Below, in pieces: positions 7,166 through 51,118 of a stretch of DNA of 64,000 nt (its first letter is position 1; each line of letters begins with the position of its first letter). The position numbers were made by a program, and so were the translations under genes. The stretch spans positions 496,001 to 560,000 of the forward strand of contig CM074698.1 of the NCBI GenBank assembly GCA_037367355.1, read 5' to 3'. The DNA comes from Neoscytalidium dimidiatum (lineage: Eukaryota > Ascomycota > Dothideomycetes > Botryosphaeriales > Botryosphaeriaceae). The notes under the pieces were generated by a model. It saw only the letters and a program-made list of their open reading frames with translations. It ran no database searches and had not been told where the DNA came from.

Positions 7166-8377
7166 ATGGGGGGGCCACGCATCTACAGCGCTACTGCCAC
7201 AGCTCCAGTCAACATAGCCACGATAAAGTTGGTAACAGAAGGAAATCACTTTCAAACCCTATTGACTCGTTTTTGCAGATATTGGGGCAAACGCGATGAG
7301 GACCTTAACCTTCCGACAAACTCCTCCCTCTCCGTCACCCTTTCACAAGATGATCTGCGTACGTCCACCACTGTGTCATGTTCAGCATCCTACGCGAGCG
7401 ATTCCATAAATCTCAACGGCCAAGTGGGAGACGCCTCCGCGCCACGTCTTCAGAAATGCCTCACCGCTCTTCGCAACCTCCGCCGCAGGCTGGAAGCGAC
7501 GGACCAGACGCTTCCCCCGCTGTCTCATTACGGCATCCACATTGTCAGCGAAAACAACTTCCCCACAGCCAGCGGTTTGGCTAGCAGCGCGTCGGGCTAC
7601 GCTTGCCTAGTTCGCGCCGCGGCCGACCTTTACAGCCTCACCGTCTCGGCCGCCGAACTGTCCCGCATTGCGCGGCTGGGATCCGGCTCCGCCTGCCGCA
7701 GCCTCATGGGCGGCTATGTGGCCTGGGATCTGGGCAGGGAGCGGGACGGCTCTGACAGCCGGGCGAGACAGGTGGCAGCAGCGGCGCACTGGCCCGACAT
7801 GCGGGCGCTTATCCTCGTCGTGCGCGACCGAGAGAAGGACGTGAGCAGCTCAAGTGGCATGCAGCTGACGGTGCGAACAAGCGAGATGGCTGCGTACCGA
7901 GCTGAGCGGCTTGTGCCGACGCGTATGCTTCAGATGGAGGCAGCTGTGCTGGCGAGAGACTTCGGGGCCTTTGGGAAGCTAACTATGAAGGAAAGCAACT
8001 CATTCCACGCTCTGTGCTTGGATACTCAGCCGCCGATCATGTACATGGATGATTCCTCCCGTGCGGCGATCAGGATCGTTGAACAGCTCAACGCTCGCGC
8101 TGAGAAGACGGTGGCTGCGTACTCCTTCGATGCTGGACCCAATCCTGTTATTTTCTATCTGGAGCAACATAAAGCGCACGTCGCTGGCAGCTTCAGATTC
8201 CTGCTCCCCGGAAAAGACGGGTGGGAGAGTGATCGAAGCAAGAATATTGAGGCCAATGAAATATTTATCCCGGCCTGGCTGAATGCAGATGTCACCGTGT
8301 TGAACGATCGCGTCTCAAGAGTCATTTTGAGCGCGGTCGGTGATGGTCCGAGGAGCATTAACAGCACAGTTCATTAG
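7166..8377 (+). CDS. Diphosphomevalonate decarboxylase (mevalonate pathway, cluster copy)
   Basis: Converts mevalonate 5-diphosphate to isopentenyl diphosphate with ATP. The start at 7166 (AAAATGGGG) is the first ATG before TATAPVNIATIK. A 51-nt intron (7228-7278) without an in-frame stop interrupts the family anchor; removing it gives the expected IATIKYWGKRD. The nucleotide-binding segment ASGLASSASGYACLV, the GSGSACRSL loop and the C-terminal DAGPN motif with the catalytic-region Asp are all present, so the enzyme looks active. Length after splicing is about 386 residues, normal for ERG19/MVD1. It is convergent with mevalonate kinase, only about 290 bp away. Being in a terpene cluster it is probably a pathway-specific paralogue, but the primary copy cannot be seen from here. 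Confidence 0.93.
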   Translation: MGGPRIYSATATAPVNIATIKLVTEGNHFQTLLTRFCRYWGKRDEDLNLPTNSSLSVTLSQDDLRTSTTVSCSASYASDSINLNGQVGDASAPRLQKCLTALRNLRRRLEATDQTLPPLSHYGIHIVSENNFPTASGLASSASGYACLVRAAADLYSLTVSAAELSRIARLGSGSACRSLMGGYVAWDLGRERDGSDSRARQVAAAAHWPDMRALILVVRDREKDVSSSSGMQLTVRTSEMAAYRAERLVPTRMLQMEAAVLARDFGAFGKLTMKESNSFHALCLDTQPPIMYMDDSSRAAIRIVEQLNARAEKTVAAYSFDAGPNPVIFYLEQHKAHVAGSFRFLLPGKDGWESDRSKNIEANEIFIPAWLNADVTVLNDRVSRVILSAVGDGPRSINSTVH

Positions 8378-8668
8378 ATTTGCAGATAGAGCACTCAAGA
8401 AGGAGAAATACAGTCAAATGTCACTCCTCTGCTTTTTCGTCATTTTTGATGGACCAGTCAATCAACGATTCCAATAGAACTCTGCAATTGGATCAAAGAG
8501 AGCAAGTGCCGCTGGAAGCCTATTGATGTTTGTATAATGCTGTGCTCTCTGTGCTTTCCGAAAACTTCCTTCAATCAACGCACCGATTGCTACTTCCTAG
8601 CACGTTACATTCGGACTCCGTTTCACCCAAGCTACTCATCAAACGCCTGCACTAGAGGCGTTAACCAT

Positions 8669-10159
8669 CTACTGTCTCCAAAAGTTCCAGCCCTCCCAGC
8701 TGTCGGAAGAGGCCTCTCCGGAAGACGGCGCCGTATTCATGCCAACCAACCCCTCTACGGCCTCGGTTCCTTGCGCGTTCAAAAACTTCTCCTGATCAAT
8801 CTCTTTACCGCTCTGCAAGACAGCAGGCCAAAGCACGCCAACACCATCGCCAGCAAGCGTCGCTTCGTACTTCTTAAAGCCCTCGTCCGCCAGCGCCCTT
8901 TCCAGATTCATCAGCACTTGTGACATCTTCCTTGCGCTCGAAGGGGTCGAGTCGGCCGATTCATTCCGCATGATATCCCAGCCGCCAATTTCAGGCTTAA
9001 GGAGAGTGATGGTACAGCCCCCGCCGCCAGCACCAGTGAGCTTAGTCCAGCCGATGCCGGCATGGTCAGTGAGGGCGCGGACCCGCTCCAGTCTTGGAGT
9101 AGATACGCCAAGCGCAACAAGAAGGCCGTGATTGGCAGCTATGAGGTTGCCCAAGTGTTGTAAAGCTGCCGGATCCCAGCAGTCTATGTCTCTGGTAACG
9201 AGGCAGTCGTACGCGGATTTCGAGATCTCGTGAATAGCGTCGAGAATGTACTCCGTGATGGCTGGGTAGACATCCTTGAGATGTTGCACTTTAGCAACCT
9301 CATCAGCCGTGTTTCGGGGGGCTTCCGTGTTAACGATTAGTAGAGGGAGCTCCGGAAAGTCGCGTAAGGGCGTGACAACCGGGAGCCCCCCTTTCGTGTT
9401 TTGAAAAAAGACAGCTTTGCCGCCACTGGAAACCATGTTGTCTACGCCTGAAGGGTTGCCGTGATAGCACATCTCTGCGACAAAGGCCCATCTATTGATG
9501 TATCCGATGTGAAGCGCCGATTCTGCAGAAGACTGGGTTTTATAAGGGGTACTAAATGCTCTACTTTGAAGCAGCAACGCAGTAGCTAGGCATACTGCTA
9601 CACTTGCACTGCTTCCCAAACCTGCTCCAATTGGTATCGTTGAGCGAAGAGTGTATATGCAGGAAGTTGGCTCTCGGGAGCTTAGTGAGAGGAAAAGGTA
9701 GAGAAATGCGAGGACAGAGGCCTGATGAGCTTTGCGGATGTGTTTCTCGTAGCCTGGGCTGATGGCTTGTACGTACGGTTGAAGAATTCTCGTGAGCTCG
9801 GGGTCGAGAGCCGTAACATAATCATAATGGTGCTTTTTTTTTCTAGGGGCTGAGAAAGCCGCCCAGGGTAGTTCGTTGATATCCCAACTATGGTCTAGCC
9901 CAATGTCGGGGAAGCGGAGAGAGATGGTAGGCTTCGAATTTACAGGAAAGGTGACAAGTAGGTACGAGCGAAGTGATATTGCAGCAGCAATTGCAGCCTA
10001 CAGTTACGTTAATGATAAATACCGAGTCGCGAATGAGACTTTTCTGACCTTGTTATGGACCACAGCATGTTCCCCATAGAGGATGACCTTACCAGGTGCG
10101 GAGACCACGAAGGAGGGTACATAATGTTGACGGTGGCAAATCGCGACGTGGCGATTCAT
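8669..10159 (-). CDS. Mevalonate kinase (mevalonate pathway, cluster copy)
   Basis: Phosphorylates mevalonate with ATP. Exon 1 (10159-10049) carries VVSAPGKVILYGEHAVVHNK, the GHMP-kinase N-terminal motif. A 51-nt intron (9998-10048) leads to exon 2 with AAIAAAISLRSY, the glycine-rich ATP loop IPIGAGLGSSASVAV, the substrate-region GNPSGVDN and the C-terminal GAGGGGCTITL motif. The spliced protein is about 479 residues, within the range of fungal ERG12. The frame is open through both exons with no damage. Together with the adjacent decarboxylase it supplies two of the three ATP-dependent steps; phosphomevalonate kinase is not in this window. The start was chosen as the ATG 22 residues before the GHMP motif. 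Confidence 0.93.
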
Positions 10160-10544: not shown

Positions 10545-11248
10545 CTACAGGAATTGACGGGCAATAAATGTCAAGGCAACACATGTCAGTAGTGTTAAAT
10601 AAATGCCAATACGAGTATAAGCTACCCCTGACGGTGTAGTGCCCGAGTGTAAAGGTTCGTCATTAGGTTCGTCAGTAGATCGAACAGTATCTCCAGACTA
10701 TAGACCAGCAAAGAGAGAATTAGCCCCCTCGAACTGCTTTCATTGTCCCGCTGAGAGCTAAGACTACGGCACTAGTGGCTGCCAGCGGAGGAGAGCCGTT
10801 CTAGTGCACTCAAATCGGAGAACAGAGTTTCACATTTCGTAAGACAGCACGAGGGATAATCACAAAAGAAAAGCGCTGTGAAATACAGGGGCTACCACAT
10901 ACCTGTCTCATGAGGGTTCCGACAAGCAGGCCATTCAGGACCTTGTAAGCCTCAGTGCTGTGTCCAATATCCTTAAAGGCATCCGAGGCATCTTGACCAG
11001 CGAAGTCTAACAATGTCTGTTCTCCACCACTAGATTAAATTTCATGGTTAACATTCGCAAACCGACGTGTTGCATGCTGGATGGGAGCGTGCTCATACGA
11101 GGCATATGAACTGTTGAATATTCACTTACGGGTGCTCTCGGACGAAATTACTACAGTTATACACCTTATCGTGCATAATGATATAAATATCTCCCTTAGC
11201 AATGTGCTTCGAAACGTCAGAGAGGGTTAATTCTGGAGTTGCGGACAT
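10545..11248 (-). CDS. Cytochrome b5, tail-anchored
   Basis: Three exons: 11248-11130, 11029-10903 and 10697-10545. They encode about 132 residues. Exon 1 begins MSATPELTLSDVSKHIAKGD and ends in the heme-binding REHPGGE motif, which is split by the first intron (GTAAGT donor). Exon 2 carries the rest of the heme fold (LLDFAGQDASDAFKDIGHS), with the second heme histidine in the GHS motif. Exon 3 is a polar linker and a hydrophobic C-terminal helix (GIYLTLLTCVALTFIARQFL), the usual ER tail anchor. The length fits microsomal cytochrome b5. It probably donates the second electron to one or more of the cluster P450s. Splicing of the last intron is slightly uncertain because it is 205 nt, long for this locus. 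Confidence 0.9.
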
Positions 11249-12095
11249 GTTTGTAAATCTGAGAAAGCAGTGCAATATTAGAGGTGTCGAAAACTAAAAG
11301 TACGTAAAACATTTACCCTCTCTCTCAAAACAAGACTTATATAATTCAGTAGACAGAAAGCTTCCTTTTACTAAGTACAAGTTTTCGGACAATTATCCGA
11401 CAATAGCGAATACACCCAGCGATGGCCTGATTCAATAGATTATGCCGAACTATCTACTAATAAACATTCATCCCGAGTCTTCATGGCAAAGAAAATCTGG
11501 ATTTAGAACGCTTGAAACCGCTGACAAAGCGGCGGCGCGGGAGCTTCAGGAAACTGAAATCGCCGAGCTCGGACTCCGACGATGGGGCCGTTGACGGGGC
11601 TAGGATACGGGCAATTTGCACCAATCGGTATGATACTATGACCATAGACGCAGTTTTATGGAGTCTGTTCTGTGTATTGGCCGCCTCGCTAATATGGTTG
11701 GAAGTCGGGAGGGTCGTCATGGTTGGTGGAGACGGCGGATTTACACGGCTCGCTCAAGGGCCTCAAGTTTGAGAAATTCGATTTGCTAAGTAAATACGCA
11801 CGAACGTGCGAAAGCACCACATGGTGAAGTAGAGTGCAACGATATACTTTTACAATTTTCAACTACAGTTTGTGCTGGGAAATCCTTAACAAGCATCTCC
11901 AGCGAGTCTGAATTCTGTCGCTTTTGCTCTGAGCAAGACTTTGCAGTGGCTGTACCGTATAGCATCTCCGCTTCGAGACTCTCCAAAGTGAGGCTGATCA
12001 GTTTTGGCAAACAGACAATCGAAATCGTGAAAGGTTCGAGCCGCAGCATAGTTTGTGGTGCTGCCAACAGAACTTCAGCTCAACAGGCCGCTGTA
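11249..12095. other. Divergent promoter region, cytochrome b5 / MFS transporter
   Basis: 847 bp between two divergent start codons. No convincing gene: the overlapping short frames at 11481-11772 run on both strands without recognisable domains. It contains a TCGGACTCCGA palindrome at 11569-11579. Confidence 0.5.
11569..11579. promoter_or_regulatory. Cluster palindrome TCGGACTCCGA
   Basis: Exact TCGG-N3-CCGA match in the divergent promoter between the cytochrome b5 gene and the DHA1-type MFS transporter, about 320 and 520 bp from their start codons. Probably a binding site for the AflR-like regulator of the cluster. Confidence 0.7.
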
Positions 12096-13697
12096 ATGGA
12101 CGACGACGCAATCCAGGATTCGAATACTGTCTGGTGGGATAGCGACACCGATCCCGCAAATCCGATGAATTGGAGCCAGCCAAAAAAATGGATAAACATC
12201 TGTCTAGTGTCTTTTGTCTGTTTCGTCACACCCCTCGCCTCGTTCATGTTAAGTCCCGGAGTGCCCGATGTCATGAGAGAGTTTGAAACCTCTAGCAACT
12301 TCGTGTCTTCTTTCATTATTTCAATTTACATCCTTGGCTTTGCTGTCGGGCCCTTGGTCCTCGCACCGCTCTCGGAAATCTATGGACGCTCGCCGGTTTA
12401 TCATGTGGGAAATGTCAGCTTTTTGGTCTTTACCATACTTTGCGCCGTATCGAATAGCATGGAAATGCTGATGGTAAGTCGGTTCTTCTCGGGGGTCTTT
12501 GGAGGTCCAGCTGTATCGATTGGCGGAGGAACGGTGGGCGATCTGATGCCCCCAGAGAGTAGAGGCCGTGCGATGGCTATTCGTACAATTGGTCCAATTA
12601 TCGGACCGATAATTGGGCCGATCAGTGGAGGGTTCTTAGTTGAAGCTATAGGGTGGAGATGGGTATTTTGGCTTATGGCCATCCTGGTATGTTTTCGTCA
12701 CTACCACTTCTCTTCATCTTTCCCTTTTCGACATTCAATCTCTTCTTCAACTATTATTACATTCGAGTTATACCACTGACAGGAAGTGGCCTTCTCAGGC
12801 TGGCGTTATGACCGTGGCATGCCTATGCTTTCTCCCGGAAACGTACGCACCCGTGATTCTCGCGCGCAAGGCTGCTCGTCTCCGTAAAGCTACAGGCAAC
12901 CAAGCTCTCCGCTCCAAGCTTGACGATGGGACCTCCCCGGGTGAGAGTTTCCGTTGTTCGATCATCCGGCCTATCCAATTACTCGTCTTCTCATTGACCG
13001 CCGCGTTGTTAGCCGTTTACATTGGTGTTATATACGGAACGTATTTTCTACTCGCCACAACATTCACATTTGTTTTTCAAGAACAATACGGCTTCAGTAG
13101 CGGAATCATTGGCCTTTCATACCTTGGATTCGGTGTGGGTCAAATCCTTGCGGTTATACTCTCTGGGCCTTTGTCCGACTACGCGGTTGCAAAGGCGAAG
13201 ACGCGGAACGGATCGTTGAAGCCAGAAGATCGGCTGCCTTTGTGGCTAATTATGCCGCCGGCGACCTGCATTCCGATTGGACTTTTTATCTTCGGCTGGA
13301 CCGTGCAGTACAAGACGCATTGGATTGTTCCTCTAGTTGGCAATGCAATTTTCGGATACGGGTTGGTTTTCTGCGTGGTAAGATACCCTCGATAATCCAA
13401 GGAAGACCTCCAAGCTATGGAATTAATGGACTTTCACAGACAACTATTCAGACCTACCTTGTCGATTCATTCACCCTATATGCTGCCTCTGCCATAGCTG
13501 CCAATACGGTTCTGCGAAGCCTCTTCGGAGCATTGCTACCCCTTGTGGGTCTGGACATGTATGACAGCCTTGGGTATGGATGGGGCAACTCACTGCTGGG
13601 GTTCGTCGCACTAGCACTGATTCCAATTCCGGCGGTATTCAGTATCTTTGGTGAACACATCCGAAATAGAGGAATATCGCGGTACCGTACATTTTAA
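12096..13697 (+). CDS. MFS transporter, DHA1 drug:H+ antiporter type
   Basis: Three exons: 12096-12686, 12799-13377 and 13440-13697. They encode about 475 residues. The N-terminal [14 protein letters not shown] is the standard lead-in of fungal DHA1 multidrug transporters. Repeated hydrophobic helices follow, with the motif A region [12 protein letters not shown] between helices 2 and 3 and a glycine-rich helix 5 (motif C region) expanded to [14 protein letters not shown]. The acidic N-terminus and central cytoplasmic loop are normal for the family. Likely role: export of the sesquiterpenoid product at the plasma membrane. It lies divergent from cytochrome b5 across a promoter with a cluster palindrome. 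Both introns have GTATGT/GTAAGA donors and the frame is intact. Confidence 0.9.
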
Positions 13698-14546: not shown

Positions 14547-16219
14547 ATGGCTTCCACTTCCACATGGATTGAGACCGTTGATCTCAACCCGCCATTGGCG
14601 TCCTCGGACGCACTCGACGCATCAACGGCGGAGCATGAAATGACGTTTTTGCAGGCTATTCGCGTTCATCGCAAAGCGGCGATCTGGTCGGCCGTAGTGT
14701 CTTTGGCCACCATTATGGACGGCTACGATCTGCAGATCATCACCGCGCTCTACGGCTACCCCAGTTTCCAGAAGAAATATGGTGTGCAGCTCGACGACGG
14801 CACATATTCCATACCGGCATCGTGGCAACTAGGGCTCAACCTGGCTTCCAATCTCGGTCTAGTTGTTGGCGGCTTCTTGAACGGCTGGCTGGTCGAACAC
14901 GTTGGGCCAAGACGGATGATGATCTTGTCATACATCTCTCTGACTGGATTTATATTCGTTTCATTCTTCGCGCCTAGCATCGAGGTACTGCTAGTTGGTT
15001 GTTTGCTTTGCGGGCTGCCCTGGGGTGTGTTTGCCACAATCGCACCGTTGTACGCCGCTGAGGTATGCCCGCTTGCTCTGCGGAGCTATCTCACAACCTA
15101 TGTCAGCTTAGCCTGGATCGCCGGGCGCATAGTTGGTACGGGAGTCCTCCAAGGCATGATCCACAATCCTACTCAATGGTCGTACCGCGTCCCCTTCGCA
15201 CTGCAATGGATTTGGCCTGTGCCGTTAGCTTTAGCAGTTTGGTTCGCACCTGAATCCCCCTGGTGGCAGGTGCGCAGAGGCCGTCTCGCCTCCGCCGAAG
15301 CGACGATGAGGCGGCTGACCAGCCGACAGTCCCAAGCAGAAGTAGACGAAGCAGCCAGAAAAGCTGTCGCCATGATGGCCCACACAGTGCAAACCGAAAA
15401 GGACCTCAATATTGGCAGCAACTACATTGATTGCTTCCGCGGCACAAATCTCCGAAGGACCGAGGTTGCATCAGTTTCTTGGGGTGGCCAAGTTCTTGCC
15501 GGGTTCGCGATACAGAACTACATGACCTACTTCTTCACACTCGCCGGGCTGACGTCCGGCAACGCGTTGAAGTTGAGCCTGGGTGTATTTGGTGCTGCTT
15601 TTGTGTGTACCTTGTTCTCTTGGTTCTTGCAGTCACGGTTTGGACGGAGACAGATTTACATCATCGGGCTCTGTGTCCTGGCACCCGTTATGCTCCTGGT
15701 TGCTCTGCGTATGTTTTCCTCAAGTATTACAGCGAGCACGTTCCTAGACGCGCTGACATTTTCCGGATAGTGGACTTCGGCTCCGCTAGCTCTGCGCGCT
15801 ACTGGGGTCAATGCTCGATGATAGTTATCTGGTACGGCGTTTTCGGCCTCTCCGTTGGTCCCATCCCATTTGCCATCGCGACGGAAGTCCCAGCGAGCCG
15901 GCTTCGTGCCAAGACCATCACCCTCAGCCGGAATACGTATTATTTATTTTCTACAATCAATATTGTTGTGACGCCCTATCTGCTCAATCCGACAGCGGCT
16001 AATCTGAAGGGCAAAGCGGCTTTCCCTGCGGCCGGCTTCTCGCTGGTGCTGCTAATTTGGGCTTGGTTTCGACTGCCAGAAACAAAGGGGAGGACCTTCG
16101 AAGAGCTGGATATTATGTTCGAAAAGAAAATTCCAGCAAGGATGTTCGGGAGCCTGGTTTTCGACGTTCGCGATCCGGAGAGAGGTCACAGCATTGCAAT
16201 CGAGAACTCGAAGGGCTGA
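14547..16219 (+). CDS. MFS sugar porter (maltose/alpha-glucoside:H+ symporter type)
   Basis: Two exons (14547-15708 and 15771-16219; donor GTATGT), about 536 residues. Family landmarks are MDGYDLQIITALYGYPSF in helix 1, the helix 4-6 loop with VGPRR, PESPWWQVRRGR at the end of the first half, and PETKGRTFEELDIMFEKKI after helix 12. These are diagnostic of the fungal maltose permease branch of the sugar porters. The family normally imports disaccharides or hexoses with protons. Inside a terpenoid cluster it could import carbon for precursor supply or have been recruited for another polar substrate; sequence alone does not decide. No damage is seen. Confidence 0.9.
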
Positions 16220-17104: not shown

Positions 17105-18900
17105 TTACGAAAAATGAATCTCTTCCTGGCGTCTCCGAATTTCAAGATTGGTGTTTGGATCTGTCATTAAGAAAGTACCGTATGGTCGTGTTTTTGGGAC
17201 CGAGTCTGGCGCTAATCTCCAATCGTACTTTAGGAGTAAGTGAACAAGGGCAATTTTCACTTCATTCGCAGCAAAGAATCGACCCGGGCACGCCTGTTGG
17301 CCATGTCCCCAGCCAAGGTGAGTTGGACCTGTGCTGACAAGCTGGGACGCGTTCTCTTTCCCCGGCAACTGACGCATGTTGTAGAAGCGATAGCCATCCC
17401 ACTTCTCTGGTGCATCATATACGCTGGCATCCCACATAAGATGTGAAGATACCGATATCATCTCGCCCTTTCGGATGATAGTGCCGTCGGACAGGCGAAC
17501 GTCCTGAAGGGCGAGTCTGCGCATTGAAGCTACGGGTCGTAAGTTAGCCATTACATTACAAGATCCCACGGGATTCCTACCGATATTTATAGGCTTCAAG
17601 CGCTGCGTTTCCTTGATAACACTGTCCAGCAGCTTCAGGTTGTAAAACGACGTTTTATCCATGCCTCCTGCACACACACTGACGATCTCGTCACGCAGCG
17701 GCTGAATAATTTCGGGACGCTGGGCAAGGTCTGACATGACCTGGCATATCAAGTCGGTGGTAGTATTGATGGCTGAGAGGGATAAGAAGAGCTGAGTCAA
17801 AGCCGGGTCGTAGGGAGCTCCGTTGGAGTTTCGTTCGAACCAGTCTATCGCATCGCTAAGCTCAACGCCCTTATCGCTAGCATGGAGAGTGAGACGTTCT
17901 TTACGACGCTGCTCTATCACTGGAGTGATAATTCTGCGAGCATCTCGAACAAGTCCGCTCAGTTTGCGACAACTGGGTATGAACCAATGCACGAAATACC
18001 GTGCTTTGACCGGCCACACGCGAAGTTGCTCGGCGGCCGCGATCACACACGTGGTATATTGACCAGTGACTTTCAGCCATTCCTCATTCCGACACATCTG
18101 CTTGCCCAAGAACACTCGAGAAGACATTCTTGATACAAGGGGTAGAACGGAACTTTTCAAGTGAATTTGGTGCCATTCTATTTTCTGGTCTTAGCTGGAA
18201 GGACCATCTTCCATCAAAAACATAACTCACCTTCGTTGTCGGTGAAGATATCCGATAATGCTAGCCCAGCCTCTTCAGACAGAGCACCTGTTACCTTATC
18301 TATAATACAAATCACTGTTAAAAACTTCGTTGTGAACGTACGTCTAGGGATGTGACAAGCGTTACTTACTAAGGGACTTAGTAAGTTCCTTTACAATAAC
18401 CTGCACAACAAGCTCCCTATCCTGAACGCCTGGTCTGAAGCCATCAAAGCCGGGGATATGAGAATGAAAAACCTTAAAAGAACGTCAATAGACTGTCTCG
18501 TAGTAGATGTGAGCATTCTTACGTTTTCCAGTGTTCTGGAAAAACTGAGACGTGGATCATTCCGGATCTCGTCTGCCACTGATGGAGGTAAGATAGTCAT
18601 CATGCCGATATCAGAGACAGCCCGAACTGGCCTTTCGGGATGCTTCTTAAACCAATCCCAGATCATATCTCCCCCACGAGCGATAAAGGCTTTCCGGGAC
18701 CGAGAATACGTAAATTCGAACGGCTTTTTCGGATTGAGAAGTGAGATGTTAGACATAGAAAATGGGAAAAGGTATAATGAGAGCAGGACAGCAAAGAGAA
18801 TTAGAGAGAGAACAGAATTAGGATTCTGTAGGCTGCTAGCGCCAACTAGCCATGTGTCGGTGACAAAACCTTCCGCCATGATGAGGTATTGAGTAGGCAT
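17105..18900 (-). CDS. Cytochrome P450, CYP503 (ent-kaurene oxidase-like) type, copy 1
   Basis: A multi-exon gene with introns near 18473-18522, 18305-18365, about 18180-18230 and 17530-17585. The N-terminus has one membrane helix (SVLSLILFAVLLSLYLFPF). The I-helix reads LSAINTTTDLI, the K-helix ETQRLKP supplies ExxR, and the heme loop GWGHGQQACPGRFFAANE carries the cysteine ligand. FGHG-x-x-ACPGRFFA-x-(N/S)E is typical of gibberellin ent-kaurene oxidase-like fungal P450s. Two in-frame ATGs, at 18900 and 18879, could start the protein. It is divergent from the SDR gene, sharing a 261-bp promoter with a cluster palindrome. A close paralogue lies at 37728-39526 and a dead relative at 5395-6556. 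Confidence 0.92.
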
Positions 18901-19026: not shown

Positions 19027-19037
19027 TCGGACTCCGA
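19027..19037. promoter_or_regulatory. Cluster palindrome TCGGACTCCGA
   Basis: Exact TCGG-N3-CCGA match in the 261-bp divergent promoter of the P450 (start 18900) and SDR (start 19162), with about the same distance to each start codon. The best placed site for coordinate control of two genes. Confidence 0.75.
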
Positions 19038-19161: not shown

Positions 19162-20044
19162 ATGTCCTTCTCTGATAAAGTCTGTCTTGTTACCGGCGGC
19201 GGCCGCGGCTTAGGGAGAGCCATCGCCGAGGCCTACTTGAAAGCCGGCGCTCTTGTTTATATCTGTGATATTAACTCCAACTGCCTCGAGAATACGCTTG
19301 CAGAGTTTTCAGATCGCTATTTTGGTCGAATATCAGGCATCGTCGCTGATGTTACAGATGAGTCTGCTGTTCAGGACGCAGTTTCCAGGACGGTAAGCTC
19401 TTTTGGGCATCTGGATATCCTTATCAACAATGCAGGAATTGTAGACAAGTACAAATCAATGCCTCCTCGTCTGCATATCTGCTGACTTGTGTTGAAGATG
19501 GGATCCTGTCGGCACACTCGAGCGGGTCGTCTGGGACCGCGTAATCGCTACCAACCTTACCGGTCCCTACCTTTTCAGCAAACTGGCAGTGCTACAGATG
19601 TTGAAACAAGCGGCTGGCGGCGTCATTATCAATATTGCCTCTCCTGCGGCTGTGAAGGGTAGCGTGGGTGGTATGTATACTCGTGTTCGTGAACGAATAA
19701 GACTATGCTGATAAACTATCTGTAAACCAGGAGCTGCCTACGTGTCAAGCAAAGCGGGCCTCGTCGGCTTGACGAAAAACACGGCGGCCTTCTATAACAA
19801 GAAGAATATTCGGTGCGTTGCGCTGATCCCCGGGTCCATGACGACACCCATTGTGGAGGAGACGGCGAAGGTTCCAAATCTAAACAAAGAGGGAATTGCG
19901 CGAATGAGAGAGGCAACCACAACGGAGCGCCAAGTGTGTGATATCGATGATGTGGTTCAAATGATCTTGTTCTATTCAACGAATAGTGCACGCGTCGCTA
20001 ATGGTGCCATTGTAACGGCAGATGGCGGTTGGTTAGCTTTTTAG
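19162..20044 (+). CDS. Short-chain dehydrogenase/reductase (classical SDR)
   Basis: Three exons: 19162-19448, 19498-19670 and 19731-20044. They encode 257 residues. The cofactor loop TGGGRGLG, the NNAG motif, the catalytic serine in NIASPAA and the YVSSK Tyr-Lys pair are all present, and DGGWLAF is the normal C-terminus. The first intron (GTACAA donor) joins to DKWDPVGTLERVVWDRV, as expected of the family. Likely role: NAD(P)-dependent oxidation of a terpene alcohol or reduction of a ketone in the pathway. It shares a promoter with a P450. Confidence 0.93.
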
Positions 20045-20437: not shown

Positions 20438-22207
20438 TTAATTACGTACTACAGGCTTCAAAGTACACATCAATGGAGGCTTTACCCAGTTCACGTAAAC
20501 AAGCTGATCATCCCAATTCATTGACTCAGGACAGAGCTCCAGGTCGTAATTCCAGAGAATATTCGCCATGATGCGCCGGATTACCATATGCGCCAAGCTG
20601 TACATAGATAAAATCAGCCTCCATCCAAAGACGATAGAAAGTAGGAATATGACAACGGTCCGGAGTCCCTTACTTTTTCCCTATGCAATTTCTTGGTCCG
20701 TAGAGAAATGGCTGCACTGAGTCTAACACATCATTTGCATACTTCTCCTCTGGCTTTTCTAGCCACCGTTCAGGCGCAAAGTTGTCTGGATCGTTGAAGT
20801 GCGCTTTCATGCGATGCGCCGAGAAGGGGCTCACAAAGACGGTCGTTCCCGCAGCTATTAGCCTCCCTGAAATGATCGTGCCTCCAGGTGGCACAACTCG
20901 TGGCATGCCCGATGGCGCTGGCGGATAAAGGCGTAAAGCTTCTTGAATACAGGCACGTAGGAAAGGGAGCTGCGCGAGACGTGAGGCATCCATCTCTGAT
21001 GGATCAGTGAAAGCTCCACGGATTTCTTTACTCAGCGCAGCCATCTTGTCTGGATTGCTGAGCAGAAAGTATGTCAAACCGGAGAGGAGAGTCGACGGGG
21101 ATTCGCTTCCAGCCCCCATCACCACGCCACCGATAGCGTACATCTCGTTTAGATTAATACCTTTCTCATCCCCATCATGGCGTAAGACAACGCTCCATAT
21201 GTCTTGTCCTTCGGCTCGATTCTCAAGACGAGTATCGACAAGGTGTCGAGTAAATTCTCCATGCAAGTTCAGTTCTCTGGAAAGCTTCGGAGGGACCAAG
21301 ATACGCCGTATGATTGTCCCCAACAGTGGATAGCTGGCTTTGATCGCCGGCAAAAGCGCGAATGATTTGATCGCGCCGTGGAGAGCGAGTGCCCACGGGT
21401 GGTAATCCGGATTCTCTAACATATTGAGAGACGCCCCAAACGCTATGTCAGCTATGATGTCAAAGAGACAAAAGTTGTACATCATCGACATATCAACACC
21501 CTCGGATGTACACTTGTCTAGTTTCTTGATAAGAATGTCAATGTGTTTCTGCATGGAAGGTTGATGCTCGTACAACGCCCTTTCGGAGAATGCGTGAGCT
21601 AATAGCCGGCGTTGACGAGCATGGTCTTCATCGTGTGCCCTTTAAATGACGCAGTCAATTAATGTAAACCACGCTTTTGGCAAGGGAAGTTATAAGAGCA
21701 TCCGATATCCATATTCTTCCTCTGAGGCTCTTGAAACTTACCTAGTAATGCCGTTCGACCCAACAAGGTCAGGGCCATATAGATTCATATCTGCTTCAAC
21801 TATTAGCCTTTCTACCTCATCCCGGAGCCAAGTAGTTACCTTTAGGCAACGGAGGTTTCCCTCCCATCCTATGGCCGTATATATCCTTCCAAGCATCTAC
21901 GGATATGAAAGACAGCTGTCTTGGTGCAATACGAACGACTTCTCCATACTGCTCATGGAGTTTTTTTATCCATCTGATTTGATGACCACGAGAGCGGTTC
22001 AAGATGAACGGAAAGTGGCTGGCAGCAGCGAGTCTGGGTCCCGGTATGTTTCGCAAGGGATGAAAGTAAAGATTATATACTACTGAAATCGTAGCATATA
22101 GAATCTACGAAGAGTTCAGTAAGCTATAGGATTTGAAGATAAAGTACTATACATACAACTGCAAGGGCGGCTGCTTCGAGACCGACTAGAGATGTTGTGA
22201 ATGTCAT
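20438..22207 (-). CDS. Cytochrome P450, CYP65 (isotrichodermin C-15 hydroxylase-like) type, copy 1
   Basis: Exon 1 starts at 22207 with a short hydrophobic segment. Exon 2 gives YFHPLRNIPGPRLAAASHFP and RIAPRQLSFISVDAWKDIYG, and a large exon spans 21575-20690. The I-helix reads GGVVMGAGSESPSTLL; the acid-alcohol pair is Glu-Ser rather than Glu-Thr. Further on are the ExxR helix IQEALRLYPP, APERW and the heme loop FLYGPRNCIGK. The final exon (about 20616-20438) encodes LAHMVIRRIMANILWNYDLEL to the stop at 20438. The heme loop is followed directly by an intron (donor GTAAGG). Likely an ER-bound oxygenase acting on the terpene scaffold. No frameshifts seen. Confidence 0.9.
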
Positions 22208-26271: not shown

Positions 26272-26521
26272 GTTGCAATAATGATTGCCAATAATAATCC
26301 CGGCCGTGCTCTCCATGAGGGGAACGCAGCCGTCTTGAACTAGTTCGGTTGTGACTGGCTAGGGAATGGTCCCCGCATTCGCTCTAATTTTTCTCTCCGA
26401 GCCAGCCTCATATCTCGGACGATTTCTGTGCTACCGCTCATCTGATAATCTGCTAAATGCCGCAAATATATAGCGCGATATTGTATCGGCACTCAGACTG
26501 CAGCTACCCTCTCTCGCCTTA

Positions 26522-33098: not shown

Positions 33099-34167
33099 GT
33101 ACTTGTCCAGTAATAACCTTCGTAATCTTGAACTGAGCAAAGGATGCTTAGCGTTAAAAGCTTCATCTCTAGTAGCAGAGCGTTCTAAACTACGCATAGG
33201 ACTAAATCACGCAGCAAAATTAAATGCAGCGCGGCAATAGAATTCCCTCAAACGTACCTGCTGAGTCGCATGGTACTATGAGTCGCATGGTACTATGCCT
33301 ACTTACCTGTAATCAAAAATTGGTTCGAGTCATGATGCTGGCGTTCCTCGCTTTGACCTGTAACCGAGTTCGTTAGTCTAGCGTCGGAACTTCAGGGATG
33401 CCCACTGGTTCGTGGAGAATAGCTCGAGATGGGTGGGGATTTGGTGCCTCTCCTAAACGCATATCTTCCGGAGTTCCCGCAAAGACTATCCCGCCTTGAT
33501 ATCATAGATTAGCATGCATTAAAACCTCTGGGAATTAGCCTCCACAGGTGTGCGTCGACCCCCGTCGTGTTGACGGCTTCACGAGCCGGCTCGGGGGTGA
33601 CTGGTCGGTTTTCCAATCAGTCACCTAACAAATCAAAGCTCTATTTGTCTCGAGCCCCGTACGGGATGAGTTCGGCCAAGATAATCATCCTTGACGCGCC
33701 GTTTCGATCACGCACCTTGGAAGCAAACTTCAACTTGGTACGGCTGTAGCGTAACGGATAAGCACTTTTGCCCAAGACAACATTAGGCTTGCTCGCGGGG
33801 AAGATATTGCAATCGGCGAGAAGAAGTAATCCTAGCATAGCGAACTACCAAAGGCGGACTTGTCTTAACCGTCATGGTCACCATATGGGCAGCAGACTTG
33901 ATTCAGTACTCCCAAATAACAAGCAGGGTTGACCGTTGTCAGTGGCGCCAGCACTGCAGAGTGAATGACTGAGTGGCGCATCCAGCCCGTTGGGCGCTCT
34001 CGAGTCAGTTCGGATGACTGAAACTGTCCGATAAAGCACCCCATTCAGCTGCACAGCTGCAGAACATCCTAACTCAGAAGAGCTGCAAGCTTTAGATCGA
34101 CCCCTACTTCATGCCTGATATATAAGCAGTACTCGCGAAGTCGCTTTTCGATATCATTTTCGAAACC
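33099..34167. other. Intergenic upstream of the regulator
   Basis: 1.07 kb without a supported gene. A tandem pair of an 18-nt unit (GAGTCGCATGGTACTAT plus one) occurs at about 33264-33298. No tRNA or ORF with a recognisable domain. Confidence 0.5.
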
Positions 34168-35328: not shown

Positions 35329-37084
<1,756 letters not shown>

Positions 37085-37727
37085 AACGGTCAGCCGGATA
37101 GATTAGGATTTCTATCATGAGATTCAGAATCTATGACACCTATGACAGACCGCATTCGTAAAAAAGTGAGCAAACTAGACATGACTGATAGTCAGGTCTC
37201 TTGGTGTCGTGTCTCTAAGGCGTGGAAGCGAGATGTCTTAGAATCCGTATCAAAGATCTGGGGCAGCAAATTTGACATGTTATCACCAGGGCTTTCGGAT
37301 TTGCTCGATTGTGTACAGTGGCGGGGTTTGATCGCGCCATCACACCTTCAGGATCTGTGTCATGCAGATACCGTAACTATCATACCACTTAGTCTGCGGG
37401 GCCGCTCAACGCGTGTACCCAACCTCGGCCTAAACCTGCATCCTTGCATCAAAACCGGGCGAGTCAGCCCGCTTGAGCTAATTCATGCAGTTGCAGCGAT
37501 AAGAATCATGTCGATCTGCAGTCGCAGAGCTAATTACTACGTAGGAAAGCACTGTCTTTGCAATACGAGATTGCTCGACTCATGCAATTTCGCCATCCGG
37601 ACCGGCCCAGTGCCAAGGCCATATTTAAGCTTCGCCACGATAATTGTGTTCGTCTTAGCTAAACCTAAATCGTACTTATCCAGAGCACACCTCGTCGGAC
37701 TCCGACATCATCCCCAACGCAGCTCTA
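37085..37727. other. Intergenic between convergent GAPDH and P450
   Basis: 643 bp between two gene ends. The frame at 37133-37855 on the plus strand overlaps the P450 antisense and has no recognisable domain. One TCGGACTCCGA palindrome lies at 37695-37705. Confidence 0.5.
37695..37705. promoter_or_regulatory. Cluster palindrome TCGGACTCCGA at a gene end
   Basis: Exact TCGG-N3-CCGA match only about 23 bp beyond the stop of the P450 at 37728. It is not in an obvious promoter, so it may be a displaced or non-functional site. Confidence 0.4.
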
Positions 37728-39526
37728 TCAGAATGGAACCCCCTCATCCCGACGTCGGATCATCAGCTTGGCCGCGGGATCTGCATAGTACGACGCGCCA
37801 GCGTACCGATGCTGGATCACGGCTCCCGTGGACAGTTTTAGGTCGTATTTCATGAGTATGTGGCAAAGTGCGACTTTTAGCTCGCTGCTGGCGAAGAAGC
37901 GCCCTGGGCACGCATGTTTCCCATGCCCGAAGCCGAGGTGCCGCTCGCTTGTGGATACGAACAGCGCCTCCTTGTCCTTCCCAGGGACCTCGCGCATCCG
38001 CAGGAATCTGTATCCGTCCCACTCGTCGGGCTTCTCGTACACGGTCGGATCCCACATCCGGTGCGAAGACACAGCCAGCTTCGTGCCTTTGGGCAGGTAT
38101 GTGCCGTCTGTCAGCTTCACATCCTGCGTGGCGATCCGTCTCATCGAGACTGGGAACCGTTGTCAGTATCAGTGCGGACGTGGGGAGGCTGCAGTCCTAC
38201 ATACCTACGGCGATCGGTTTCAGGCGAAGAGATTCCTTGATGACGCTATCCAGTAGCTTCATGTTGTTCAGGGATGTCTTTTTCCAGCCACCGTCCCGAA
38301 GCACGTCGGTGATTTCTTCCCGCAGAGCGTCGATAATCTCTGGGTGGCGGACAATATCCAGCATCGTCACGGTTAAGAGGTCCGATGTCGTGTGGATTGC
38401 GACGGTCGATATGAACAGCTGCACGATCTCGGGATCGTATGAACAGCCTCGAGCCTTCGCTGCTTGTTCGAACCACTCGATGGCATCGTTGTACTCTATG
38501 GGCTCCTTACCTTGAGCCTCAAGTGCTGCCTTCTCAGCGCGTCGTCGTTCAAGCACTGGACGAATGATTTGTCCGGCCCGCTTCACCTCGGCACGTAATT
38601 TCTGGGCCTCGGGGAGAAACCAATGCACAATCTGCCGTAGGTAGCTTGGAACCCGACGAAGGCGTTCCGCCGCGAGCATGATGTCGACCGTGTAGTTGAC
38701 TGTGATCTCGAGCCAGTCCTCATCTCGACAGAGGTCCTTACCCAGGAAGATCCTGGATGACAGCCGCGCGACAAGGTCGAGGTTTATTTCCTTCAGATTA
38801 ACCTCGTGCCACTCTATCACATGTCAGCGTCTTTATCAAATTAGGTCGTCTGAAGGCGGTCGTCACCCTTGTTATCCGTATATATCTTCTTCAGTGCAAA
38901 GTTTGACTCGTCTGAGAGCGGTTCCGTCATCCTTACTGCAGCGTGAAAGGCCATTAGCACCTTGGCCAAAGTCAGCATATCCAAGAGTCAGAGACGCACC
39001 AAGGTTCTGTGTCAGCCACTTCTGGATGACAAGGATGCCGATGTCATTATCGAACATGCCCTCACGAGTGGGCTCGAAGCCGGGAAGCTCGCTGAAGAAT
39101 AACTGATGAACCAGTCAGTATTTCATTTGATGCGATTTCTGTCCAATAGGGCCCTACATGTGCCATAAAAGCGACGAAGCTAAGGTTGGGGTCGTTTCTG
39201 ATCTCGTTCGAATATTCAGGCGGAAGAATGGTGGTTAATCCAACATCCGCTCCTATCATGTTGAAAGGCCTTTTGGGAAACCGCTCAATCCCCTGTTGAA
39301 TTATCTGCCTCGCTTTGACTAGCCACTCCTTTTTGACTCGACTTTCAGTCAGCTCAAACGGCCTTTTAGGGTTGATCAAAGGGAGCGCCGTGGCTTTCGG
39401 CATCTTGAACCAGTAGTAGGCAAGGACAACGAAACCCATCAGGGTACATAAGATGAAGTTGGCCCTAGAGGGACCCTCCTGGAAGAGACCCGCATCCAAT
39501 ACGGTGACGTTGTACGAATCGTCCAT
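37728..39526 (-). CDS. Cytochrome P450, CYP503 (ent-kaurene oxidase-like) type, copy 2
   Basis: The start at 39526 (MDDSYNVTVLDAGLFQEG) precedes one membrane helix (FILCTLMGFVVLAYYWF). Conserved blocks are INPKRPFELTESRVKKEW, TTILPPEYSNEIRNDP, the I-helix VAIHTTSDLL, the ExxR helix IKESLRLKPI and the heme loop GFGHGKHACPGRFFASSE. Introns lie near 39105-39155, about 38945-39000, 38820-38870 and 38150-38205. It parallels the P450 at 17105-18900 block by block, so the two are paralogues that may carry out successive oxidations, as ent-kaurene oxidases do on one methyl group (inference). It is divergent from the P450 at 40118, with a cluster palindrome between them. Confidence 0.92.
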
Positions 39527-39971: not shown

Positions 39972-39982
39972 TCGGAGTCCGA
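39972..39982. promoter_or_regulatory. Cluster palindrome TCGGAGTCCGA
   Basis: Exact TCGG-N3-CCGA match in the 591-bp divergent promoter between the P450 starting at 39526 and that starting at 40118, about 140 bp from the latter. Confidence 0.75.
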
Positions 39983-40117: not shown

Positions 40118-41931
40118 ATGGGTTCTCCTACTTTGTTCGCACCTCGAAACTTTCATGTCGTGCAGCCGACTCAGATATTCATCGCTTTGCTCGCCATAGT
40201 ATTGTTAGTAAGTTTTGATCCTAGATAGTACACTTGCCTTGAAACCTGCTAATTCTTGCTTGCAGTACATTCTTTACCACGCCAGCATTTGGGTCTACAA
40301 TATCTACTTCCATCCCCTTGCCGGATATCCCGGCCCATTGCTATCTCGTGCATCATCGTTGTGGTACGCTCGCTCGCTTTCTCGTGGTAGGATTGCTCAA
40401 GATACGTTGACCTTGCACGATCGTTATGGCCCGATCGTCCGGATCGCACCGGATGAGCTTTCGTACATCAATCCCGAGAACTGGAAGGAGATATACACAT
40501 TCAAACCCGGAAGAGGGGAGTTGATCAAAGACCCGAGATACCACGATACCGTCAAACCAACACCAACCGTTCTGACCGGAAATTGGGATGAACATAGCCA
40601 GTACCGCAAAATGCTATCCCCCACATTTTCTGAAAGAACGCTCAAGGATCAGGAAAATATTCTACACAAATACATTGACCTGTTCATATCAAGACTTCAT
40701 GAAGTATCAGAAGAAGGCCAGAAACCTGTTGATATGACGGCTTGGTGGAACGTTTGTTACCCCTGAATCTGTCAAGAGGACCGTGTGAGCTGACACCCCG
40801 CTGTATCGTAGTTCCTTACATTTGATATCATCGGCTTCCTCGGTATGAATTACAAAAGGCCCCGTTTGCTCAAATATTGAAGTGCTTACGCTCTTGCTAG
40901 CTTACGGCGAGTCTTTCAACTGTCTTACCAGCCCAAAGCTCCATGATTGGATCGAGGCTACTTTGAACATCGCGATTCTCATGTCACTTGGTCAGGCGGG
41001 TCGCCAGCTGCCTGCCCCGTTCGACAAGATGTACAAGAAGTGGGCCATCCCAGAGTCAGTGCGCAGAAACGCGAAGCTACATGCGGATCTGACCAAGGCA
41101 AGGCCCCCGTTTGCCACACTGTGCTGTGAGAATAACAGTCGTCAAACAGGAAAAGCTTCAGAACCGCCTGCAGAGCGAGCCCAGTCACATGGATGTGGTG
41201 AATCGCATGATCGCTGCCTACAAGAATGGAGAGGTGCCGTATGATGTACTGAAGGAGCATGCATCCATCCTTACGATTGGCGGAAGTGAGACCACAGCAA
41301 CCCTTCTGGCAGGTAAGTTATGCAAGCCAGTAGTTAGCAGAGGCGGACTTCAGCTGACGTAGTACCGAAAGGAGCCACTTACTACCTGGCCACGAATCCC
41401 GTCGTGTTTCGCAAGCTTTCCCACGAAGTGCGTGCAGCCTTTGCAAAAGACGAGGACATCACCGTGGCAGGCGCCAATGGGTGCCAATACCTCGTAGCTT
41501 GCATCGAGGAATCGCTGCGCATATATCCGCCGTCGCCAGCAAACCACACTCGTATCACCCCGCCCGAGGGAATCGTCTTGGACGGGCAATTCGTCCCCGG
41601 AGGCATGGCGGTTGGCATGCCTATGTACGCCTCTTTCCGCAGTGGGAGAAACTTCCACAATCCCGACCGCTTTGTTCCCGAGCGCTGGCTGGGCGACAAA
41701 GAATACGCTGGCGATAAGAAGCACGCTTTGCAGCCCTTCTCGGTCGGCCCGCGTAACTGCCTTGGACGCGCTCTCGCATATCAAGAGATCAAACTGGCTT
41801 TGGCGAAGCTCGTGTGGCATTTCGATATAGAGCTGCGTCCTGAGAGTAAGAATTGGACAGACCAGCAGAATTTCACGTTCTGGGTAAAGCCTCAGCTATG
41901 GGTGAACCTCACTCCTGCGCGCAGGTCATGA
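40118..41931 (+). CDS. Cytochrome P450, CYP65 (isotrichodermin C-15 hydroxylase-like) type, copy 2, with a GC-AG intron
   Basis: Exon 1 (MGSPTLFAPRNFHVVQPTQI) is followed by YFHPLAGYPGPLLSRASSLW and RIAPDELSYINPENWKEIY. Introns lie at about 40208-40265, 40752-40811, 40841-40901, 41098-41149 and 41313-41370. The fourth must use a GC donor (AAG|GCAAGG) to restore LTKEKLQNRL. The I-helix reads LTIGGSETTATLLAG, the K-helix IEESLRIYPPSPAN, and the heme loop PFSVGPRNCLGRALAY. The protein ends at 41931 and all catalytic motifs are intact. It resembles the P450 at 20438-22207 (shared FHPL, RIAP and ELS-I blocks), a second paralogous pair in the cluster. Confidence 0.9.
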
Positions 41932-43270: not shown

Positions 43271-43600
43271 CAGACATCCGGTGCCACTAGTACGGACGAC
43301 AACTTAAAAGCAAAGTTTGCAATTGAGATCAATTAATACAAAGACAAGGCTGCTGCAAATGGATGGACCTACAAGCAAATAGGTTGACTAGGGTACGGAG
43401 CATATGTCATGCTCTGTGGTTCCTGAACACAGTCGACGAAATGGGTGAACTATAAGGTCAATTCAGCCAAGAATATCCACAGTATCCACACCAAGCTTTG
43501 CATTAATTTCAGATTGATTAGCAATTGTACGGGTTGACAGCGGTATTAATGATAGCACAGCACATATACTGAGTTAAAAGAAAAAAAGAATGCTTAAACC

Positions 43601-44198
<598 letters not shown>

Positions 44199-45124: not shown

Positions 45125-46483
<1,359 letters not shown>

Positions 46484-49382: not shown

Positions 49383-49573
49383 GTCTGCCCCATAATAAGA
49401 AGCCCCTGGCCTGTTGTTGACCTACCTCGCCGACCTTGATCACGAATCGTCATTTCTGTACTCCGACCCGCCCCCGGGAAAGATGGACGCTGCCAAAATT
49501 GACCGACTTCATTCCGAGCCCTCTCCTTAAAAGGCGCCGGCCGGTGCTTGCAGAGTCCGGGCGAACGGCCAGC

Positions 49574-51118
49574 ATGGTGGGACCGGCTCAACATGTGGGC
49601 ATCAAAGCCCTGGAAATCTACTTCCCCAATCAAGTCAGTTCTCGCACCCTTCCTCTGACCCGTATTCTGACTCGCAGCTCCAGTGCGTCAACCAGAGCGA
49701 GTTCGAGCTATTCCAGGGTGTGGCACCCGGGAAATTCACGGTTGGGCTGGGGCAGACCAGCATGTCATTCTGTGATGATCGTGAAGGTGAAGTGGCGGCG
49801 CAGCCGTGCATTGCCACGAGAGGACTGACACCGTATTCCCAGACATCTACTCATTCGCCCTGACAGCCGTGTCGTCCCTTCTACGTAAGCACGGCGTTGA
49901 CCCGAAGTCAATCGGACGAGTTGAAGTGGGCACCGAGTCGCCGCTTGACAAGTCGAAGTCGTGCAAATCCGTGCTGATGCAGCTGTTCGAGCCCTTTGGC
50001 AACTTCAGCATCATGGGCTGTGACACTTTCAACGCCTGTTACGGCGGCACCAACGCCCTGTTCAATGCTGTGAATTGGATCGAGTCGTCGAGCTGGGACG
50101 GCCGGGATGCCATCGTGGTGGCGGGAGACATCGCGATGTACAACCAACCCGCTGCCCGCCCCACCGGCGGTGCTGGATGTGTGGCCATGCTCGTCGGCTC
50201 AGATGCGCCCCTGGCTCTCGACCCGGGCCTGAGCGGCTCGTTTTTCAAACATACGTACGACTTCTACAAGGCTGACTTCAAGTCGGAGTATCCGATAGTT
50301 GACGGACAGTACTCGATTCAATGTTATACTCAGGCTCTCGATGCTTGTTATCGACACTACAACGATCGCAGGACTTCATCGACTCAGCCGCCTTCTTCAT
50401 CTTCGCTCGCGCGAGACGCACAAGGCACCCGGCTCGACTTCTTCGACTATCTGGCCTTCCACGCGCCAACTTGCAAGCTGGTCGAGAAGTCGTACGCCCG
50501 ACTCTTGTACAATGACTACGTCGCTGACCCCAACAACCCACTCTTCGCCTTGATTCCGCCCGAGCTCAGTGGTCTGGGCAACTGGGACAGCCTCAATAAT
50601 AAGGCTGTCGAGAAGGCATTTGTCGCGTTAGCAAGGGACAGATTTGTCGAACGCGTAAAGCCTGCCGTTACGGTGCCCACTATGTGTGGTAACATGTACA
50701 CAGCGAGTGTTTACGGGGGTCTGATCGGGCTCTTATGCAGCGTTGGGAGCGAAAAGTTGCAAGGCAAGCGTATCGGTGTGTTCAGCTACGGCAGCGGCCT
50801 TGCCAGCTCGTTGTTTAGCTTGACCGTGCGCGCCGACATCTCGGATATGCTACGCAAGATCAACCTGCAGGCGAGGCTGGATCAGAGGCACACTTTGTCC
50901 CCGGAAGCTTACGACAAGGTGAGGACGTTTTGATACAGCACGCAGCACAGCAGGTTCCAAGCAGTGCTAACTTTTCTTGACAGGCTTGCCAGATTCGGGA
51001 ATCGGCGTACCAAAAGAATAACTACACGCCTGTGGCGGATACCACGAGGCTTCTCCCCGGAACTTACTATCTTACTCACGTCGACGATTTGTTTCGGCGC
51101 ACGTATCAAGTCAAATAG
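49574..51118 (+). CDS. Hydroxymethylglutaryl-CoA synthase (mevalonate pathway, cluster copy)
   Basis: Condenses acetyl-CoA with acetoacetyl-CoA to HMG-CoA. Four exons (49574-49633, 49678-49786, 49843-50918, 50984-51118) give 459 residues, the normal length. Family blocks are VGIKALEIYFPNQ, GLGQTSMSFCDDREDIYSFA, the catalytic-glutamate segment VEVGTESPLDKSKS, the acylated cysteine in FNACYGGTNALFNAVNWIES and the histidine in FHAPTCKL. The C-terminal exon reads RLLPGTYYLTHVDDLFRRTY. No lesion is seen. Its short promoter is shared with the zinc-cluster-less regulator. With the thiolase at 45.1 kb it forms the first half of the precursor supply; HMG-CoA reductase is not in this window. Confidence 0.94.

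Follow-up and report, generated by a model that had tools for sequence, protein, structure and literature searches.

Background

Precursor genes inside terpene clusters are already known. The ent-pimaradiene cluster of Aspergillus nidulans carries an HMG-CoA reductase gene, AN1593, and a geranylgeranyl diphosphate (GGPP) synthase gene, AN1592 (PMC3323652; this and the other papers are cited from excerpts), and in Streptomyces, mevalonate gene sets flank hybrid isoprenoid clusters (PMC4650096). The heptelidic acid cluster of A. oryzae is described as holding the synthase gene hepA, the cytochrome P450 genes hepC, hepD, hepE and hepH, the major facilitator superfamily (MFS) gene hepF, hepB, the regulators hepR and hepS, and hepG, a glyceraldehyde-3-phosphate dehydrogenase (GAPDH) gene for which a self-resistance role was suggested (PMC9394295); a dedicated GAPDH in the sesquiterpene synthesis of Trichoderma virens is the subject of a reference title in PMC7303927. 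For Neofusicoccum parvum growing in woody stems, co-expressed mevalonate-pathway clusters are reported in a review to peak two weeks post inoculation (PMC9415585). Here we describe a locus of Neoscytalidium dimidiatum at which such precursor genes are unusually many: a 64,000-nucleotide stretch (C4:496001-560000, in a genome of 43.76 Mb and 40 contigs; hereafter the window, numbered from its first base) holds intact second copies of four mevalonate-pathway enzymes around a sesquiterpene synthase gene.

Four intact second copies of mevalonate-pathway enzymes

The first-pass annotation of this DNA, made from its letters alone, reported four intact early-isoprenoid enzymes and a broken isopentenyl diphosphate isomerase (IDI) between positions 7166 and 51118. 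Six-frame reading with Pfam profiles and splice-aware alignment, from which the spliced proteins were taken, bear this out: diphosphomevalonate decarboxylase (MVD), mevalonate kinase (MK), cytosolic acetyl-CoA acetyltransferase (ACAT) and HMG-CoA synthase (HMGS) can all be spliced into uninterrupted proteins, and the isomerase has stops and a lost frame (Table 1). The annotation had also reasoned that if the genome held no other copies, these would be housekeeping genes placed here by chance. A search of the whole genome instead found another copy of all four intact enzymes, as well as of IDI and of HMG-CoA reductase (HMGR, at C8:1342437), which supports the view that the four are duplicates and not displaced housekeeping genes.

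The window MVD is 59.9% identical (229/382 aa) to the copy at C4:766430, MK 63.1% (308/488 aa) to C5:2210941-2212293, HMGS 61.5% (278/452 aa) to C2:2173929 and ACAT 82.2% (327/398 aa) to C10:2304460, the last alignment spanning the whole length. Solved structures align with residues 5-384 of the 386 in MVD (1fi4, 1.5e-118), 6-455 of the 457 in HMGS (2p8u) and 32-390 of the 494 in MK (2r3v, with 1kvk matching too). MVD retains KYWGK, GSGSACRS and FDAGPN, which we take to be its catalytic motifs, and HMGS retains VGTES, NACYGG and FHAPTCKL, presumably the motifs of the catalytic Glu, Cys and His. The GHMP family profile finds seven places in the genome: the window MVD and MK, the MVD at C4:766430, the MK at C5:2211727, and three others that by reading only appear to be galactokinase, homoserine kinase and phosphomevalonate kinase (PMK).

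Between window and housekeeping copies, third codon positions are the most changed, and the ratio of nonsynonymous to synonymous substitution (dN/dS, NG86) is 0.24 for MVD, 0.20 for HMGS, 0.12 for MK and 0.05 for ACAT; with dS of 1.4-2.3, near saturation, these ratios are rough, and being pairwise they include the housekeeping branch too. The window copies have less GC at these positions than the housekeeping ones (0.52-0.69 vs 0.74-0.94). At the level of sequence, the window copies have thus diverged from the housekeeping genes yet are still constrained. Intron positions coincide with those of the other copy for MVD, for the intron that the MK genes share, for ACAT (where one agrees to within one residue) and for two of the three in HMGS, so we rejected an origin as retrocopies. 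Recent local duplication together with flanking DNA was likewise rejected: when the window was compared by blastn with nine housekeeping loci, none of the seven matches extended beyond the genes. Ratios of the kind left by repeat-induced point mutation, calculated from dinucleotides, showed nothing special. The copies elsewhere lie on C2, C4, C5, C8 and C10, which is consistent with the recruitment in at least two events that the first-pass annotation suggested.

Remnants of further pathway steps

The window lacks HMGR, PMK and farnesyl diphosphate (FPP) synthase, as had been noted before, and a scrap of HMGR sits just outside it. This degraded C-terminal piece, in three frames, occupies C4:495451-495898, some 100 to 550 bases before the window begins. 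The housekeeping enzyme matches it by tblastn in three pieces (E of 5e-6 for two and 0.01 for the third), the HMGR profile matches weakly at C4:495454-495686, below the family cut-off, and one piece scores 26.9 bits against Pfam HMG-CoA_red, for which the cut-off is 27. The IDI relic shares 69.7% DNA identity over 337 bases with the other IDI locus, C8:836718. The open frames of PMK and of the prenyl synthases, FPP synthase included, had no tblastn match at E<=0.01 within C4:466001-580000, a stretch of 114 kb. The neighbourhood seems, then, to have held six of the seven enzymes leading from acetyl-CoA to dimethylallyl diphosphate (ACAT, HMGS, HMGR, MK, MVD and IDI), four of them intact today.

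The surrounding sesquiterpene cluster

The terpene synthase is 70.3% identical over 354 aa to a Penicillium protein (P0241), 70.6% to one from A. flavus (P0242), which we infer to be the HepA counterpart, and 92% over 226 aa to a partial record from N. parvum (P0248); the next best place in this genome reaches 36%. With this identity of 70-71% and intact motifs, it fits the HepA family. The second GAPDH gene, which the first-pass annotation did not mention, points to the kind of cluster: its product shares 71-72% identity with that of the one further copy found (C4:3974744), and it is a candidate self-resistance copy. Two MFS genes would, at family level, provide an exporter, and one Zn2Cys6 gene was seen in the frames scanned, against the two regulators of the heptelidic acid cluster. 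By analogy, the product is probably a heptelidic-acid-like sesquiterpene.

There are six P450 genes, one or more of which may be broken: by reading, P450c possibly breaks off ahead of its haem-binding part. The pieces of the aldehyde dehydrogenase (ALDH) gene are spread over several frames, and its middle matches poorly, also by reading.

Table 1. Features of the window, with positions counted from its first base.
Feature	Position	Strand	Evidence and remarks
Palindrome TCGGASTCCGA	4889-4899		exact
MVD, second copy, 386 aa	7166-8377	+	Pfam MDD_C 2.1e-59; intron 7228-7278
MK, second copy, 494 aa	8669-10204	-	GHMP N and C domains; intron 9998-10048
Cytochrome b5	10900-11248 (3' end approximate)	-	Cyt-b5 7.5e-25, spliced reading
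Palindrome TCGGASTCCGA	11569-11579		between divergent cytochrome b5 and MFS1
MFS transporter (MFS1)	12096-13697	+	MFS_1 2e-34, TRI12 1.1e-7
Sugar-type MFS transporter (MFS2)	14547-16219	+	Sugar_tr 3.6e-57
P450a	17105-18879	-	p450 4.9e-25 on 3' piece
Palindrome TCGGASTCCGA	19027-19037		between divergent P450a and SDR
Short-chain dehydrogenase (SDR)	19162-20044	+	adh_short / adh_short_C2, two pieces
P450b	20441-21641	-	p450 2e-47; gene start not placed
ALDH, looks broken	24387-26221	-	Aldedh on two pieces
P450c	26474-28150	+	p450 2.2e-25 on one piece, rest by reading
Sesquiterpene synthase (TPS)	29254-30697 (3' end by reading)	-	Terpene_syn_C_2 4e-5; six introns; DDEID and NDMLSLRKE
P450d	31170-33100 (approximate ends)	+	p450, two pieces
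Zn2Cys6 transcription factor	34168-35328	+	Zn_clus 1.6e-9
GAPDH, second copy, 337 aa	35960-37084	+	Gp_dh_N and Gp_dh_C; closest structure 8de5
Palindrome TCGGASTCCGA	37695-37705		near P450e 3' end, after GAPDH
P450e	37728-39526 (3' end approximate)	-	p450 1.4e-15 on one piece
Palindrome TCGGASTCCGA	39972-39982		between divergent P450e and P450f
P450f	40212-41931	+	p450 8.7e-5 and 1.6e-40, two pieces; gene start not placed
IDI relic	43640-44194	-	tblastn 38%, 3e-29, runs over stops, frame broken
ACAT, second copy, ~402 aa	45125-46483	-	Thiolase_N and Thiolase_C; three introns
HMGS, second copy, 457 aa	49574-51118	+	HMG_CoA_synt N and C; three introns

Left of the window, an epoxide hydrolase gene lies at -2966 to -1732 with a near form of the palindrome described below before it, and the cluster may reach further left than 7166. 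Scraps at 5700-6550 read, by eye, like a P450 resembling P450a.

A palindrome shared by cluster promoters

A search of 14 promoters for a shared dyad, with no motif preset (P450b, P450c, P450f, ALDH and the IDI relic were omitted, their starts being unplaced), returned CGGN3CCG in nine of the 14 against 0.95 expected. The z score of 8.55 exceeds the largest null value of 6.29 from 40 shuffles and is itself too high, because promoters overlap and the pairs P450a/SDR and TPS/P450d each share a site. Beyond this dyad, no other common word stood out in the 14 promoters. Two counts are unaffected by the overlap. CGGAGTCCG occurs six times in the window against 0.41 expected, and none of 100 shuffles reaches six. 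The commonest form, TCGGASTCCGA, is found 20 times genome-wide, compared with 38 times for the reversed control word, and five of the 20 sites fall within about 35 kb here (Table 1). Near forms with one mismatch lie at -3136, before the epoxide hydrolase gene of the left flank, at 8611, where the 3' ends of MVD and MK face each other, and at 35808, before the GAPDH gene. The promoter of the synthase and P450d has a form with two mismatches, and that of HMGS only a CGGN3CCG with another spacer. The palindrome is likely a site to which the zinc-cluster regulator encoded in the cluster binds.

Relatives, linkage and trees

The window HMGS is 84% identical to an N. parvum protein (P0001) and the window MVD 85% to another (P0121). 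Among the 120 HMGS matches listed, five reach at least 70%: two from N. parvum and one each from Corynespora cassiicola (81%), D. corticola and L. theobromae. One of the 120 MVD matches listed, out of 6679 that passed the threshold, exceeds 61%, namely that from N. parvum. The housekeeping copies have their own close relatives among the proteins listed: HMGS is 89.8% identical to one from Diplodia intermedia and 88.7% to one from N. parvum, and MVD 87.4% to one from N. parvum. These identities by themselves place the host in the Botryosphaeriales and probably in the Botryosphaeriaceae. The terpene synthase has 27 relatives in total, which apart from the partial N. parvum record are 54-71% identical and, where an organism is named, come from Aspergillus (A. 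flavus, A. parasiticus), Penicillium, Aureobasidium, Xylaria, Nemania, Rosellinia and Trichoderma (T. virens).

The N. parvum records for MVD (P0121, one contig) and for the synthase (P0248, two contigs) give the same length for their longest contig, 178,694 bases, so that linkage of the two genes in that species is probable and their association is probably shared with a second genus. Same-contig matching for further copies among the listed matches gave no additional linkage. Neither Aspergillus nor Xylaria nor Trichoderma is named among the 120 MVD matches listed of the 6679, which makes a close cluster-type MVD unlikely in these genera, although they carry the synthase; it looks as if the mevalonate genes were added in this lineage.

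Gene trees were built for HMGS (31 rows, 29 of them chosen for spread from the 120 listed matches, with P0006 trimmed to its first 430 residues) and for MVD (34 rows, 32 chosen likewise). The window HMGS, N. parvum and Corynespora (P0002) form one group (support 100/99), which together with three more Botryosphaeriaceae copies (100/100) stands apart from the other 25 rows. In the MVD tree, the window and N. parvum copies pair (100/100) and are then joined by diverged copies from B. dothidea and L. theobromae (100/99). The groups for constrained-tree tests were named after the trees had been seen. Forcing the Botryosphaeriaceae HMGS copies together without Corynespora was rejected (approximately unbiased test, p-AU 0.0003), which puts the Corynespora protein inside a mainly Botryosphaeriaceae group and suggests transfer of HMGS between orders. 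Forcing the HMGS copies together with the housekeeping genes of the order cost 25 log-likelihood units and was not quite rejected (p-AU 0.058), and the MVD trees constrained to a nested origin were slightly better than the free tree (p-AU 0.586 and 0.574). Since these constraints are not rejected, a fast-evolving duplicate born within the order is possible, and acquisition from afar is not supported for either gene.

The B. dothidea and L. theobromae MVDs (P0177, P0184) share 74% identity with each other and 60-65% with those housekeeping MVDs that were compared, which shows that the family has additional MVD copies. The N. parvum record P0006, of 760 aa, joins an HMGS to an alpha/beta hydrolase and is either a fusion or an annotation error. 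Two further loci of N. dimidiatum itself hold related genes. At C3:2285848-2286359, a degraded HMGS scrap that scores better with the cluster-type than with the housekeeping HMGS adjoins prenyl-synthase pieces and frames reading as a 2002-aa polyketide synthase (PKS) and a flavin monooxygenase; here an HMGS copy may once have been part of another terpenoid cluster. Another gene resembling FPP synthase, the second in the genome (polyprenyl_synt 3.4e-70), lies at C11:2605596-2606519, near frames reading as P450, SDR, PKS and flavin monooxygenase; the contig ends about 34 kb away.

What the second copies may be for

The reading we favour, with a probability of roughly 0.6, is that a cluster of the heptelidic (koningic) acid kind has gathered second copies of mevalonate-pathway genes, which likely feed its synthase, and that its GAPDH copy protects the producer. 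ACAT and HMGS would supply the entry to the pathway and MK and MVD later steps, as HMGR and IDI would formerly have done too. Fungal terpene clusters and ergosterol synthesis draw on one pool of farnesyl diphosphate; the extra enzymes, if active, would raise isopentenyl diphosphate and hence farnesyl diphosphate for the cluster's terpene synthase. The second GAPDH would spare the producer the effect of its own GAPDH-inhibiting product. Because the module is incomplete here, the housekeeping genes would have to provide HMGR, PMK, IDI and FPP synthase. Some other use of HMG-CoA would not explain MK and MVD, whose steps come later than mevalonate.

Several observations weigh against this reading. 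Within 800 bp before MVD, MK, ACAT and HMGS there is no palindrome-like site: the best matches have 3-4 mismatches, which is also the best match in 1285 of 1500 random pieces, and this is the chief argument against common regulation of the mevalonate genes. MFS2 and the Zn2Cys6 gene lack the palindrome too (3 and 4 mismatches), so a gene without it may still belong to the cluster. The cluster has no working HMGR, PMK, IDI or FPP synthase, and HMGR, described as one of the main points at which fungal terpenoid synthesis is controlled (PMC10175467), is present as a scrap only. The pathway may be out of action in this strain, since ALDH and perhaps one P450 look broken. For Corynespora, the listed matches include a cluster-type HMGS (P0002), with no such MVD and no named synthase. 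Of the dedicated duplicates proposed in the first-pass annotation, then, duplication holds up, and dedication is called into question by the four promoters and the incomplete enzyme set.

The same observations would suit neighbours without a shared task, that is, old isoprenoid paralogs (a sterol reserve, for example, or parts of another terpenoid cluster) that happen to lie beside a sesquiterpene cluster. Promoters without the palindrome, an HMGS in Corynespora without a matching named synthase among the listed matches, the cluster-type scrap beside a prenyl-synthase locus on C3 and the further diverged MVD copies of B. dothidea and L. theobromae all lean that way. We nevertheless judge such an arrangement unlikely, if far from negligible: four intact and two broken copies from one pathway, within about 52 kb and with one synthase, are not readily assembled by chance, N. 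parvum probably has its MVD linked to the same synthase, and MFS2 and the Zn2Cys6 gene lack the palindrome as well. A cluster in decay, in which a once nearly complete module is being lost from the lineage and the four intact genes are the last to go, would account for the HMGR scrap, the frame-broken IDI, the seemingly broken ALDH and possibly P450c; it is distinctly improbable, given that the four enzymes, the terpene synthase and the GAPDH all read as intact and that the synthase keeps 92% identity to N. parvum over the 226 aa compared.

Duplicated drug targets mark fungal clusters, and hymeglusin is listed among the cases (PMC10691236), so HMGS or another of the copies might instead be a self-resistance gene in a cluster that makes an inhibitor of the mevalonate pathway. 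A target gene would be expected singly, whereas four enzymes of one pathway are copied here, and the second GAPDH already suits the role of target copy; we give this idea very little credence. That the window copies are the housekeeping genes themselves, placed here by chance, is refuted by the genome search and has practically no probability left: the other HMGS is 88.7-89.8% identical to Botryosphaeriaceae proteins against 61-62% for the window copy, and the other MVD 86-87% against 60-61%.

If the favoured account of a cluster that feeds its own synthase is taken a step further, the Botryosphaeriaceae might carry a second mevalonate pathway for secondary metabolism, borne on clusters, once six of seven enzymes strong, constrained across genera, and with parts, HMGS at least, that moved between terpenoid clusters and into Corynespora. 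We offer this tentatively, as somewhat likelier to be wrong than right. More generally, a cluster with several supply enzymes of its own would show that precursor flux and not just scaffold-making has been selected as part of a cluster, and which steps limit that flux. The copies also offer natural enzyme variants, 18-40% different in sequence from the housekeeping ones, and a module of this sort would escape genome mining that looks for only one resistance or precursor gene.

Comparison with described clusters

In listings of the open-licence literature searched, no fungal cluster is described that has four mevalonate enzymes, in line with the earlier impression that so many precursor steps are unusual; PMC8403587 and PMC8012773 do not mention mevalonate, nor does the mevalonate review PMC13412983 mention "gene cluster". 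The ent-pimaradiene cluster resembles this one in having duplicated precursor enzymes inside a terpene cluster, and its authors suggest that they feed the pathway (PMC3323652). As described in that excerpt, it has one mevalonate step plus a prenyl synthase, induced with the cluster, whereas here there are four steps, with neither a reductase nor a prenyl synthase in working order. In Streptomyces, too, several mevalonate genes sit beside an isoprenoid cluster, but as a complete set of six in organisms whose primary metabolism is described as non-mevalonate (PMC4650096); here the copies are partial (PMK was not found nearby, and HMGR and IDI are broken), and the host already has the pathway.

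Among the closest described systems is the heptelidic (koningic) acid cluster, which this locus resembles in a synthase about 70% identical to the A. flavus cyclase, a second GAPDH, MFS genes, several P450s and a Zn2Cys6 gene. The gene list in the excerpt of PMC9394295 names no mevalonate gene, in contrast to the four intact and two broken ones here, and relative to that list the present cluster adds cytochrome b5, SDR, ALDH and more P450s. The co-expressed mevalonate clusters of N. parvum belong to the same fungal order, and their description also names epoxide hydrolases, as found left of this cluster (PMC9415585); to judge from that excerpt, they may be the same locus. As for a built-in precursor supply, in which a duplicate lies beside the synthase and a housekeeping copy elsewhere, all four of the intact enzymes show it here.

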